Shown piece after piece: positions 12,854-16,490 of a stretch of 33,800 bases of DNA. Positions within the stretch are counted from its first letter, which is position 1. Every line of letters starts with the position of its first letter. The stretch comes from Rhizobium sp. Q54 (GTDB taxonomy: Bacteria; Pseudomonadota; Alphaproteobacteria; Rhizobiales; Aestuariivirgaceae), in assembly GCA_945889445.1 (NCBI GenBank), contig CAMDBX010000039.1, positions 1-33,800 on the forward strand, written 5' to 3'. The notes under the pieces were generated by a model. That model had not been told where the DNA came from and ran no database searches. It was given only the letters and a program-made list of their open reading frames with translations. Both the position numbers and the translations under genes were made by a program.

Positions 12854-13915
12854 CTAGGCCGCGTCGGCCGTGTCATCCTCCGGGTCGGACATGGCGCGCA
12901 TCACTTCGTCGATTTCCTCGCGTCCGCTTGCAAAGGCCGCCACACAGGCAGGGTCGAACTGCTCGCCTGCATTGTCGTGGAGATAGTTGAAGGCATTGCC
13001 GAGTGACCATGACGTCTTGTAGCTCCGCACGCTGGTCAGCGCGTCGAACACGTCTGCCACTGCGGCGATGCGCCCGCTCAGTGGAATCTTTTCGCCCCGC
13101 AATCGCTGCGGATAGCCTGATCCGTCCCAGCGTTCATGGTGTGTGAGGGCGATCTCCGCCGCCATGCGAAACACCCGCGAGCGCGCCCCTTGAAGCAATT
13201 CGTGGCCGATGCGCGTGTGGTCTTCCATTTCCCGGCGCTCCTCGGGCGTCAGCAGTCCGGTCTTGCGCAGCACCCCATCGCTCAGCCCCGCCTTGCCAAT
13301 GTCATGCAGCGGCGCGGCATGGCGAATGTCGCGGCAGAATTCCTCCGGCAGACCGAGGTTGTGCGCCAGGATCGCGCAATAGCGCGCCACGCGTTGGTTG
13401 TGCAGGGGCGTCTCGCGGTCGCGACACCCGGCGACACGCACCAGCGCGCTCAGATATTCCTCCTCGCGCGCCGTGACCTCAGGCGGAGGAGCAGCGGGCT
13501 CGTCCCATGGCGAAGCGGGTGTTACCGTGGCGGTTGCCGGCTGGCGCACCAGGTTGAGGATGCGGCCCCGCAAGTCCACCGGATTGATGGGCTTGCCCAT
13601 CACCTCGGCGATGCCGGCCTCCGTGGCGCGTGACCACGTTGTGGCATCGGGCTCATCCGCCGCCAGCAGGATCGGTTTGTTTCGCAGGCGCGGCTCCGCC
13701 TTCAGACGGCGCGCCACTTCGATGCCGTCAGCTTGCGGCATCCGGCACACCAGCACCGCAAGGTCGAAGTCCAGACGGTCGATGCCAGCAAGCAAGGCGT
13801 TGGTGTCGGTCTGCAGCAGGGTGGAGCAACCCGGCAACTTGCGAATGAGCATGTCCATCAGCGCCAGGTTGGTGCGGTTGTCGTCAACGATCAGGACGGA
13901 GAATTTCTCACTCAT
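12854..13915 (-). CDS. HD-GYP cyclic-di-GMP phosphodiesterase with degenerate receiver domain
   Basis: A 353-residue RpfG-like protein. Residues about 5-125 form a REC domain: the acidic pair Asp11-Asp12 and the late Lys of GKPINP are present, but the position of the phosphorylated Asp is Val56 (DLAVLVCRMP, where D-L-x-L-L-D-x-x-M-P is expected), and the conserved Ser/Thr is Ala in ILLAAD. Residues about 165-350 are an HD-GYP domain with all signatures intact: LHDIGK, TRIGHELL, HHERWDGSGYP, and IAAVADVFDALTS. So it should hydrolyse cyclic di-GMP but not be switched by ordinary phosphorylation. The ATG at 13915 lies 10 bases after the stop of the Hpt-like gene, with AAGGA upstream; the two form an operon. 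Confidence 0.9.
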   Translation of the reverse strand: MSEKFSVLIVDDNRTNLALMDMLIRKLPGCSTLLQTDTNALLAGIDRLDFDLAVLVCRMPQADGIEVARRLKAEPRLRNKPILLAADEPDATTWSRATEAGIAEVMGKPINPVDLRGRILNLVRQPATATVTPASPWDEPAAPPPEVTAREEEYLSALVRVAGCRDRETPLHNQRVARYCAILAHNLGLPEEFCRDIRHAAPLHDIGKAGLSDGVLRKTGLLTPEERREMEDHTRIGHELLQGARSRVFRMAAEIALTHHERWDGSGYPQRLRGEKIPLSGRIAAVADVFDALTSVRSYKTSWSLGNAFNYLHDNAGEQFDPACVAAFASGREEIDEVMRAMSDPEDDTADAA

Positions 13916-13925
13916 CGGGTAATCC

Positions 13926-14294
13926 TTATGAAGCATGCTTGAGGGTTGGAACGAAGCGGATGCGGGCCGCCTCCAGCGCAAGGAGGTCGGGGATGGCGGC
14001 GGTCAGCGGCGCACCGTGGAAGCCGCGCACCAGGCTGGCCAGCGCCGCAAGCCCGAGGGCCTCGGCGGAATCCTGCACTATTGCCAGCACCTGCAGGGCG
14101 GCGCGGGCATCGCCTGCCGCGATGGCCCTGGCAAGTTGTGCCTGGAGAAATGGAACATCGGCGATGAACAGCCGAAGGATATCGCGCAACCCCGCCTCGC
14201 CCACGTCGGCGAGGAGGCTTGCGAGGCGCTGCGCATCCCAGACGTCTGGTCGTGCGATTGGCGCATCTGCACCATGGTGGGCATCTGTCGTCAT
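13926..14294 (-). CDS. Hpt-like protein lacking the phosphorylatable histidine
   Basis: A 122-residue helical protein. Residues about 22-95 match the histidine phosphotransfer fold: LLADVGEAGLRDILRLFIAD, then AQLARAIAAGDARAALQVLA, then DSAEALGLAALASLV. In active Hpt domains the second block reads A-H-T-L-K-G-S-A; here the aligned segment is LAIVQDSA, with Ala71 in place of His and Gln in place of the helpful Lys. It therefore probably cannot carry phosphate. AAGGACG precedes ATG 14294. The next gene in the operon is a REC/HD-GYP protein whose own phosphoacceptor is missing, suggesting the pair binds without phosphotransfer. The Hpt assignment is by pattern only. Confidence 0.65.
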   Translation of the reverse strand: MTTDAHHGADAPIARPDVWDAQRLASLLADVGEAGLRDILRLFIADVPFLQAQLARAIAAGDARAALQVLAIVQDSAEALGLAALASLVRGFHGAPLTAAIPDLLALEAARIRFVPTLKHAS

Positions 14295-14545: not shown

Positions 14546-14800
14546 ATGGCGCTCGGCAAGACACTGCGGACGGAACTCGACGAGATCAGGTCTGAACTCT
14601 CACGCCTGCGTGAAGCTGGCGCCGCCCCAAAGGGCGAAGCTGCCACTGGCGGCCTGCATGAACAGATCGCCGAGCTGAACCGGCTCGTGCAGGACATGCT
14701 GGAGAGCGCTGAGGACACCATTGCCGAACATCCGGTGGCCACCGTCGCGGGCGCCCTCGCCCTTGGCATCGTCATCGGCCGCCTCACCGCGCATCATTAG
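14546..14800 (+). CDS. Small membrane-anchored coiled-coil protein (DUF883/ElaB-like)
   Basis: An 84-residue protein with a charged helical N-terminal half (LRTELDEIRSELSRLREA and EQIAELNRLVQDMLES, probable coiled coil) and a single C-terminal membrane segment (ATVAGALALGIVIGRL) closed by TAHH. This is the plan of ElaB/YqjD (DUF883) proteins, inner-membrane tail-anchored proteins which in E. coli bind ribosomes in stationary phase. GGAGGA precedes the ATG. Thirteen bases separate it from the YqjE-like gene, and yqjD-yqjE neighbours in enterobacteria support the pairing. Confidence 0.75.
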   Translation: MALGKTLRTELDEIRSELSRLREAGAAPKGEAATGGLHEQIAELNRLVQDMLESAEDTIAEHPVATVAGALALGIVIGRLTAHH

Positions 14801-14812
14801 GAGCAGCACGCC

Positions 14813-15253
14813 ATGAACTTCAACAACCTTTCGCGCCACATCCGTCTCATCGTGCGCGGCGAATTGCTGATGCTGCAGGCGAAGCTCGCCTTCGCCATGA
14901 AGCGATCGGCCTTCGTGGGCTTCGCGCTGCTGTTCGCGGGGCTTGGGCTGGTGTTCATTAACATGGGGCTGTTCGCGTGGCTTTCGCCGCTGTGGGGGCC
15001 GGTGTGGACACCGGCAGGGCTGGGCCTCATCAACCTGGCGCTCGCCGGATTGGCGCTGGCCATCGCCGCCATTGTCAAACCCGGTCCCGACATGGCGCTT
15101 GCCGAGGAGATCCGCAACATGGCAGCGGAATCGATCGAGACCGAAGTCAGGTCGGCGCCGCTGATGGGCGGCGGCTCCATGGCGGGCCTCGTGCTGCCCG
15201 CCATCACCACCATCATCGGTGCCATGGCAAAGCGGCACAAGGACAAGTCTTGA
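14813..15253 (+). CDS. YqjE-like/holin superfamily III membrane protein
   Basis: A 146-residue protein with two central membrane helices (FVGFALLFAGLGLVFINMGL and LGLINLALAGLALAIAAIV) preceded by an amphipathic region (IRLIVRGELLMLQAKLAFAM) and followed by a helical tail with a third hydrophobic stretch (GLVLPAITTIIGAM). It resembles the Phage_holin_3_6/YqjE family; the holin label is a family name and no lytic role is implied. It follows the DUF883-like gene in an apparent two-gene operon with AGGAG upstream, likely part of an envelope or stationary-phase stress response. Confidence 0.75.
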   Translation: MNFNNLSRHIRLIVRGELLMLQAKLAFAMKRSAFVGFALLFAGLGLVFINMGLFAWLSPLWGPVWTPAGLGLINLALAGLALAIAAIVKPGPDMALAEEIRNMAAESIETEVRSAPLMGGGSMAGLVLPAITTIIGAMAKRHKDKS

Positions 15254-15256
15254 GGC

Positions 15257-15826
15257 TCAGGTTGCGAGCAGCGACGAGCCCAGCATCACTGCAAGCAGGC
15301 CCAGCCATGCGGCGCACACCCGGCGGAGAACGGACAGGCCCGTCGCCGCGCGGTCGCCGTACAGGGCGGAACCCAGCAGCGCCCATGCGGCGGCCGCGAT
15401 GACCAGCACGATAAAGAACATTGCCAGCGCTGCCCCCTGCGAGGCCTGCGCCGGGATGAGCACCAGTCCGATGATGAAGGCCTTGGGATTGAGGAGTGTG
15501 GTGACGAACAGTTTCTTGCCGCTCAGGCCGGCTGTTGTTGCCTCGCCGGCTGCCGGTCGCCGCCACAACGTCACGGCCATCCATGCCACCCACAGGGCTG
15601 CGGCCAGGGTCACGGCCATCTGAACCCAGTGGTGCTGGCGGAGCAGGTCTTCTCCCAGTGCCGCCAGCGGCAGTACGACGGTTGCATAGGCCGCGACCAC
15701 CAGCGGCAGCAGTCGCAGCGTGCGCCATGCCCCGGCCTCCGCACCGCCCAATGCCAACAGCGCATTGGTCGGGCCCGGCGCAAACAGCAGAACGATCAGG
15801 CTGACGCAGAATTGCAGGGTGGGCAT
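15257..15826 (-). CDS. LysE/RhtB-family amino acid exporter
   Basis: A 189-residue inner-membrane protein with about six hydrophobic segments. LLFAPGPTNALLALGGAEAG near the N-terminus is the LysE-family signature (PGPxN), and KKLFVTTLLNPKAFIIGLV holds the second conserved NPK motif. The substrate is unknown; relatives export amino acids such as homoserine, threonine or leucine. It lies 28 bases downstream of the DUF2878 gene on the same strand and ends 3 bases from the stop of the convergent YqjE-like gene. The ATG at 15826 fits the usual family start. Confidence 0.88.
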   Translation of the reverse strand: MPTLQFCVSLIVLLFAPGPTNALLALGGAEAGAWRTLRLLPLVVAAYATVVLPLAALGEDLLRQHHWVQMAVTLAAALWVAWMAVTLWRRPAAGEATTAGLSGKKLFVTTLLNPKAFIIGLVLIPAQASQGAALAMFFIVLVIAAAAWALLGSALYGDRAATGLSVLRRVCAAWLGLLAVMLGSSLLAT

Positions 15827-15854
15827 GGACAGGCTTTCCCGGTGTCGTGCCGCC

Positions 15855-16490
15855 TCACTTGCTCCGAAGCCTATCGACCGCAACATGATCGAGGTCAACT
15901 GTCGCGGCGCGCGGCCGGGGCGAAATGGTGGCCGCCAGCATCATGATGACGGGAAAGGCGAGTGCCCAGGCCAGCCCGATGATCACCAGTGCGCCGGTCC
16001 CCGGCATGGTGGCGGCGCCCATCTTGGCACCCGTCCAATAGGCGAGTGGGCCGAATATGAGCCCCAGCAGCATCTGCAGGCCGGTGCGGCCCTGTAGCCA
16101 GGTCAGGCTGCCATTGGGCAGGCTGGCGAAGCCCAGCCACAGCGCCCACACCCAGATGGGCGGCAGAAATCCGAGAACCGGGCTGCCGGCGAAGGTGAGA
16201 AGACCGGCCCCCATGAAGCCGGTTTCGAGCAGGATGCCGAAAACGGCAACCGCCAGAACCAGGCGCAGTTCCGCCCACAGCACCGCCCGGCTGAGGAAAA
16301 GGTGCAGCCCCAGCAACAGGATGGCGGGTAGGGTTCCCAACCAGGGCCAGCCGCCGGCGCCTCCGGCAACGGCGGAGGCCCAAACCGCGTCGAAGGCCAG
16401 GAACTGGAACAGGGCGAGGAAGGCTTGCATGCGGTCTGCCGGGTCACTTTCTGCGTAGGAGAACGGGTCGAGCCCTAGGAGATGGTTCAT
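15855..16490 (-). CDS. DUF2878 membrane protein
   Basis: A protein of up to 211 residues with about five or six membrane segments. GGWPWLGTLPAILLLGLHLF, the acidic helix start AELRLVLAV, and GPLAYWTGAKMG are recognisable DUF2878 blocks; function unknown. The ATG at 16490 gives the longest plausible protein but has no ribosome binding site; ATG 16430 (191 residues) agrees better with the normal family start near FQFLAFDAVW. If 16490 is used, its start codon overlaps that of the divergent gene at 16489. It is probably co-transcribed with the LysE gene downstream. Confidence 0.75.
   Translation of the reverse strand: MNHLLGLDPFSYAESDPADRMQAFLALFQFLAFDAVWASAVAGGAGGWPWLGTLPAILLLGLHLFLSRAVLWAELRLVLAVAVFGILLETGFMGAGLLTFAGSPVLGFLPPIWVWALWLGFASLPNGSLTWLQGRTGLQMLLGLIFGPLAYWTGAKMGAATMPGTGALVIIGLAWALAFPVIMMLAATISPRPRAATVDLDHVAVDRLRSK

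Follow-up and report, generated by a model that had tools for sequence, protein, structure and literature searches.

A pseudo-Hpt/pseudo-receiver pair descended from an RpfC/RpfG-like ancestor as a putative phosphate-independent complex on an HD-GYP phosphodiesterase

INTRODUCTION

Among the systems closest to the locus reported here is RpfC/RpfG of Xanthomonas, which combines, within a single operon, a hybrid kinase (i.e., kinase, receiver, and C-terminal Hpt domains, in the order given for RpfC in PMC3749722) with a receiver/HD-GYP regulator. According to the available text of that paper, the unphosphorylated receiver of RpfG is thought to restrain the enzyme until the relay from RpfC reaches the receiver. 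A helix between receiver and HD-GYP domains is a known signaling element, as excerpts of PMC1592074 describe. In the HD-GYP protein PmGH, the E185A substitution reduced activity and did not abolish it, and the ligand at this position is not constant across HD-GYP groups (PMC4159591, excerpts).

Pseudo-receivers and His-less Hpt domains are already known, separately. The available text of a 2025 review (PMC12632262) counts several percent of receivers as pseudo-receivers or aspartate-less; among bacterial domains, Asp is missing from 2.0% of the receivers (3,111 of 152,269) and His from 0.9% of the Hpt domains (90 of 10,312). The same text states that the switching mechanisms of bacterial pseudo-receivers "remain a mystery." It contains no occurrence of HD-GYP (0 matches) and describes no matched pair of a His-less Hpt domain and an Asp-less receiver, and we found no report of such a pair among the titles and opening abstract lines of the openly licensed papers listed in our searches.

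Here, we describe a pair of this kind in the window (i.e., the whole 33,800-nucleotide stretch of DNA analyzed, from Rhizobium sp. Q54; genome G000). Three relatives in the same genus (G008, G010, and G014) have the same domain set as RpfC/RpfG, in the order kinase, receiver, C-terminal Hpt, and then receiver/HD-GYP. Unlike RpfC/RpfG, the window pair has no sensor, kinase, or kinase receiver, and both remaining domains are without their phosphate-carrying residue; the gene order also differs from the rpfGHC order of Xanthomonas. The window receiver resembles bacterial pseudo-receivers in having the fold without the phospho-Asp, the Thr, or the aromatic switch residue, whereas its former phosphodonor, unlike that of the pseudo-receivers described, has degraded in step and still adjoins it. 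Plant pseudo-HPt proteins of the AHP6 type, which compete within a functioning relay, likewise have an Hpt fold without the phospho-His, but here the partner receiver is also without its phospho-Asp. The ligand positions and the GYP motif are common to the window protein, PmGH, and other HD-GYP phosphodiesterases; what sets the window protein apart is a regulatory half made up of a pseudo-receiver and a linker shorter than that of the order's receiver/HD-GYP homologs.

RESULTS AND DISCUSSION

Gene pair and fold of the small protein

The pair occupies the minus strand and has the following features, where derived pairs are those without the two phosphorylated residues and canonical ones are those with them.

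12854..13915, minus strand: pseudo-receiver/HD-GYP gene, 353 aa (P0002), with an AAGGA that overlaps the pseudo-Hpt stop codon
12881..13468, minus strand: HD-GYP domain, approximately residues 150-345, with the GYP motif and each of the eight PmGH metal-ligand positions kept
13472..13546, minus strand: shorter linker, approximately residues 124-148, with a Pro+Gly fraction of 0.28 and a WD motif
13550..13900, minus strand: pseudo-receiver domain, approximately residues 6-122, with Asp56 replaced by Val, Thr86 by Ala, and Phe105 by Val
13748..13750, minus strand: Val56 codon (former phospho-Asp); Val in 1/7 and Ala in 6/7 derived orthologs, Asp in 28/28 canonical homologs
13926..14294, minus strand: pseudo-Hpt gene, 122 aa (P0001), with an ATG start at 14294 behind AAGGA and Ala71 at the phospho-His position
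14082..14084, minus strand: Ala71 codon (former phospho-His); Ala in 6/7 and Thr in 1/7 derived orthologs, His in 3/3 canonical genus pairs

Ten bases lie between the pseudo-Hpt stop codon and the receiver/HD-GYP gene, and the two genes very likely form a single operon because the ribosome site of the downstream gene overlaps the upstream stop (TCATAAGGATTACCCGATG). In Pfam searches, the receiver scored 54.0 bits (PF00072; cut-off, 30.2) and the HD domain of the HD-GYP kind scored 123.6 bits (HD_5; cut-off, 27.2). The 122-residue protein scored 14.8 bits against the Hpt family, which is below the cut-off of 24.6, and matched no NCBIfam family. No NCBIfam family reached its cut-off with the receiver/HD-GYP protein among the best 25 of 47 matches.

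The small protein is predicted to keep the helical-bundle fold of an Hpt domain. Its AlphaFold2 model (mean pLDDT, 83.3) has four main helices, and the best Foldseek matches are the ArcB Hpt domain and P. aeruginosa HptB (TM, 0.69 and 0.72), followed by AHP1 and Ypd1. Hpt proteins fill the first 11 places and, judged by title, 34 of the 50 listed among 224. The probability is 1.00 for the first three matches; E values are 0.02 and up, and none of the matches has an E value of 0.001 or below. A profile built from ten sequences (i.e., seven His-less proteins and three canonical Hpt domains) matches ArcB (1.1e-5) and LuxU (1.8e-5), and a profile restricted to the seven His-less proteins retrieves Hpt structures weakly (best E value, 0.022), with CD81 chains scoring similarly.

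Around the His site, the small protein aligns without gaps with the Hpt domains of the three canonical kinases. This alignment, the match of the ten-sequence profile to the ArcB and LuxU Hpt domains, and the predicted fold together underlie the assignment of a His-to-Ala replacement; the phosphorylatable His expected of an Hpt domain is thus missing from the window protein (Ala71). A sequence-only reading of the window had already proposed an Hpt-like protein with Ala71 in place of the phospho-His, a receiver with Val56 in place of the phospho-Asp and without the conserved Ser/Thr, and an HD-GYP domain with an intact catalytic signature. Its residue numbering and its coordinates are correct, with both genes on the minus strand; Ala86 occupies the Thr position, and the eight PmGH ligand positions, D183, K225, and GYP are all present. 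The predicted Hpt fold, with its 11 leading structural matches, agrees with that reading as well.

Distribution of the pair

We surveyed 69 genomes of the family. Full-length regulator orthologs, with identities of 46-47% or more, were found in 10 genomes, all of one genus (the Aestuariivirga group), and in every one of these an Hpt or Hpt-like domain is located directly upstream of the regulator. The records of six of them are Aestuariivirga litoralis KCTC 52945 (G001), two Aestuariivirga assemblies, and assemblies labeled no further than Bradyrhizobiaceae, Hyphomicrobiaceae, and uncultured Alphaproteobacteria; several of the 10 are metagenome assemblies. Genome G028 was omitted from the counts because its contig starts within the HD-GYP gene.

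The upstream gene encodes a small Hpt-like protein in seven of the 10 genomes (G000, G001, G012, G013, G026, G034, and G035; fused to the regulator in G035). Both phosphorylated residues are absent from all seven of these derived pairs, and both His and Asp are present in the three canonical genus pairs (G008, G010, and G014). The phospho-Asp is also kept in the 25 order-level receiver/HD-GYP homologs that were read (25 new loci; matches listed without a locus were left out). Since His and Asp are retained by none of the seven, a strain-specific mutation, which the earlier reading had considered, is ruled out. Judged from these orthologs, the paired loss of His and Asp is a lineage trait and more than chance.

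Searching the family with the small protein yielded two weak extra matches: that in G032 is a frame of 129 codons whose Hpt motif bears a His, and that in G017 is not Hpt-like by inspection. No other His-less relative was detected in 385 sampled genomes of the class (up to 11 candidates scored per genome), where the four weak matches besides the window's own all belong to frames of 674-889 aa and have a His at the motif. A search of plasmids gave no match.

Origin from a hybrid-kinase/regulator operon

In G008, G010, and G014, the upstream gene encodes a protein of 741-774 aa with HisKA, HATPase_c, receiver, and C-terminal Hpt domains, all over their Pfam cut-offs. The C-terminal Hpt domain of these kinases carries His, and the receiver of their regulators carries Asp. 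The small-gene regions of the derived genomes match the canonical kinase over its C-terminal Hpt only. With a sensor-core-receiver query (35 candidates scored in each genome), the list includes every one of the 33 matches from the seven derived genomes, and each of these starts at query residue 178 or later; among the matches listed, the query was matched from its first residues only in G008, G010, G014, and a contig-end fragment of G029.

Kinase remnants upstream of the small gene were considered, and nothing significant was found outside the Hpt in the derived regions. Relocation of the kinase elsewhere in the seven genomes was likewise rejected, as the sensor part is matched by none of the 33 matches. 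Because the small region matches the Hpt only and the sensor is unmatched in the seven genomes, the kinase has shrunk to its Hpt. A full hybrid kinase, as in RpfC/RpfG-type systems, is missing from the window pair, in which the Hpt part alone remains upstream. By sequence comparison, the window pair is a remnant of an RpfC/RpfG-like operon whose kinase has been reduced to its Hpt.

Phylogenetic analysis of 35 regulators by maximum likelihood (unrooted tree, displayed from its midpoint) placed the seven derived regulators in one clade (100/100) on a long branch (0.69). This clade groups (100/100) with five regulators located behind Hpt-ended hybrid kinases, i.e., those of G008, G010, and G014 plus L051 and L052 of another family (the locus of L052 ends within the HisKA part, which scores below its cut-off). 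The tree leaves the branching order of the three canonical genus pairs versus the seven derived ones unsettled. The reduction of the kinase and the residue losses would most simply represent one event, in the ancestor of the seven.

The neighborhoods of the seven derived pairs are alike: DUF883-like and holin-like genes adjoin the pair, and cupin-, SDR-, glyoxalase-, and sirtuin-like genes lie further on (names by sequence inspection). None of these derived-type neighbors was detected in the approximately 9 to 10 kb examined to either side of the canonical pairs in G008, G010, and G014. The neighborhoods thus differ between the two groups, which indicates that the change went with a different chromosomal place.

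In the window, the DUF883-like and holin-superfamily-like membrane genes (by inspection) are at 14546-15253 on the plus strand, divergent and upstream of the pair, as in all seven derived genomes. A unit related to these genes occurs without an adjoining pair in G015, G024, G006, and G010. No "empty site" at this unit could be made out in the genomes without the pair.

Lost and retained positions of the regulator

We compared the seven derived regulators with 28 canonical homologs (3 from the genus and 25 from the order). Eleven receiver columns are invariant in the 28 canonical proteins, and exactly three of them, Asp56, Thr86, and Phe105, are lost in all seven derived ones. Five others (G64, P81, G101, P109, and R118) are kept in 7/7, and D12, P60, and N121 are kept in part. 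The receiver Lys is kept in six of the seven; the acidic pair is intact in the window protein, and its second acid is D in 4/7. Since Asp and Thr are lost in every derived protein, we classified the domain as a pseudo-receiver. The three residues lost in all seven make up the phospho-switch: Asp56 is the phospho-acceptor, and Thr86 and Phe105 are the residue pair of the Y-T coupling of receivers, as outlined in the available text of PMC12632262.

The linker between the receiver and HD-GYP domains has 28 residues in all 28 canonical proteins, with a Pro+Gly fraction of 0-0.04, and its composition suggests a helix. In the seven derived proteins, the linker has 20-26 residues and a Pro+Gly fraction of 0.09-0.38. 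Six of the seven derived linkers contain a W-D/N motif (PWDEP, PWDEP, GWDDP, EWNDP, GWDDA, and PWDAP), and the rest of the linker is variable; the motif may be a short binding motif.

The HD-GYP domain has 47 columns that are invariant in the canonical set, of which 40 are kept, 3 are lost, and 4 are partly kept in the derived proteins. The eight PmGH ligands, D183/K225, and GYP are present in 7/7, except for the E185 position, which is kept in 6/7 (Val in G035).

Selection, a natural fusion, and the putative docking face

Pairwise dN/dS ratios (Nei-Gojobori) were calculated for 15 pairs of six genomes, with the longer and more distant G026 omitted. The small gene has ratios of 0.24-0.45, the receiver has ratios of 0.17-0.56, and the HD-GYP domain has ratios of 0.11-0.20; the means for the pseudo-Hpt and the pseudo-receiver (0.32 each) are about twice that for HD-GYP (0.15), which points to looser constraint on both. 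Each of the free small genes compared (five of five) has exactly 122 codons, and the sixth sequence was the part of the G035 fusion cut to match. These ranges and the constant length indicate that all three parts are kept, the pseudo-Hpt and the receiver more loosely. A pseudogene is not favored, given dN/dS below 1 in all 15 pairs and 122 codons in five of five free genes.

In G035, a metagenome assembly, the Hpt, receiver, and HD-GYP parts form a natural in-frame fusion of 478 residues in which the intergenic stop is absent (L038/L045; G035:C38, approximately 14588-16006, minus strand). Several bases, rather than a single one, distinguish the fusion junction from the others. The model of the fusion as one chain is poor (pLDDT, 52; pTM, 0.33); its receiver part shows alternating strands and helices with block pLDDT values mostly of 70-92, and the remainder is poor. 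The alignment used for this model (A4) was without the Hpt rows, which a mixed alignment (A3) had placed on the receiver.

Helix alpha-1 is the usual contact of receivers for Hpt and kinase domains. Among the seven derived receivers, alpha-1 has a mean pairwise identity of 0.90 versus 0.44-0.72 for the other helices. High conservation is not confined to alpha-1, however: strand beta-1 is as conserved (0.91), and the increase over the canonical pairs is greater for alpha-2 (0.19 to 0.50, versus 0.52 to 0.90 for alpha-1).

Proposed mechanism and alternatives

On balance, we consider it probable that the pair forms a phosphate-independent pseudo-Hpt/pseudo-receiver complex on the HD-GYP phosphodiesterase, derived from an RpfC/RpfG-like ancestor; the interaction and the enzymatic activity are the conditional parts of this proposal. 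The ancestral arrangement placed a receiver/HD-GYP regulator behind a hybrid histidine kinase that ended in an Hpt. The comparison shows that one branch of the genus lost the kinase apart from its Hpt, that this Hpt lost its His, and that the receiver lost its Asp, switch Thr, and switch Phe; a shorter, Pro/Gly-richer linker stands in for the 28-residue one. Every catalytic position is kept in the window HD-GYP domain, and purifying selection acts on frames that have stayed open. Loss of the phosphorylated residues makes a relay through them impossible. The pseudo-Hpt may still dock on the pseudo-receiver, most likely via helix alpha-1, as a constitutive phosphate-free subunit that would set the activity, assembly, or location of what is apparently the sole HD-GYP phosphodiesterase in the genome. 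The controlling input would be the level of the pair, another partner, or a ligand, and not phosphate. A more specific version, in which the co-degenerated pair has kept and reshaped its docking face, so that a c-di-GMP phosphodiesterase now binds its regulatory subunit permanently through the old phosphotransfer interface, with the WD linker as a possible second contact, is tentative, falling a little short of an even chance. The phosphate-independent switch suggested by the sequence-only reading is partly supported, and is strengthened by the loss of Thr86 and Phe105, the new linker, the retained HD-GYP ligands, purifying selection, and the fusion, although that reading had missed the kinase origin.

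The HD-GYP domain might instead have been released from receiver inhibition when the kinase and the rigid linker were lost, leaving a constitutively active enzyme beside two fading relics, with the small gene kept mainly by translational coupling. The inhibition proposed for the unphosphorylated receiver of RpfG (PMC3749722, available text) would fit such a release, as would the replaced linker, the dN/dS of both pseudo-domains above that of HD-GYP, and the overlap of the pseudo-Hpt stop with the next ribosome site. Relics, however, would hardly account for the length of exactly 122 codons shared by all five free genes compared, the dN/dS far below 1 in 15/15 pairs, the five receiver fold positions kept in 7/7, or the Hpt fold still predicted for the small protein, and the Hpt retained as a fused domain in G035 is unneeded for coupling alone. 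Because the seven cases most simply reflect one event, their co-conserved losses are not independent evidence of coupling; this history and the looser selection keep room for leftover domains, and we regard such an enzyme as unlikely but deserving of real weight. A standing pseudo-Hpt/pseudo-receiver complex is favored by the retained frames and fold residues and by the G035 fusion, and is the likeliest outcome.

Two other explanations concern the small protein itself. It might act as a decoy on other receivers, like the plant pseudo-HPt AHP6, with its adjacency to HD-GYP being historical. A docking fold that is predicted to survive without His is compatible with a decoy, and G000 does have other Hpt proteins (four further matches over the Pfam cut-off, with His at the motif in 4/4). 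We consider a decoy improbable, though, given that an Hpt or Hpt-like domain sits directly upstream of the regulator in 10/10 genomes, once as a fusion, and that the neighbor supplies a receiver with a conserved alpha-1. That the protein is an unrelated helical bundle and no Hpt at all seems extremely improbable: the Pfam score below the cut-off, the weak seven-sequence profile (best E value, 0.022, amid CD81 chains), and structural matches of which none has an E value of 0.001 or below are outweighed by the alignment to the Hpt that the kinase carries in orthologous operons, the match of the profile including canonical Hpt domains to ArcB and LuxU, and the predominance of Hpt proteins among the structural matches (all of the leading 11 and, by title, 34 of the 50 listed).

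The pseudo-receiver beside its degraded former donor, the kinase-bearing relatives, and the natural fusion form a before-and-after series within one genus. This series lets one ask what two-component signaling keeps without phosphate and whether docking by itself is enough to govern an output enzyme, and it provides a natural test case for signaling proteins that no longer use phosphate.

HD-GYP complement of the genomes

In an HD_5 search of G000, the window HD-GYP domain was the sole match, and for this reason the window pair may be relevant to all c-di-GMP turnover of the HD-GYP type in this genome. G034 carries a second receiver/HD-GYP gene, L022 (G034:C2:148263-149276), which is 35% identical and was treated as a separate paralog. 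L022 keeps the Asp, and the end part of the frame upstream of it has a His-bearing Hpt motif; G034 thus still owns a kinase/HD-GYP pair of the normal kind.
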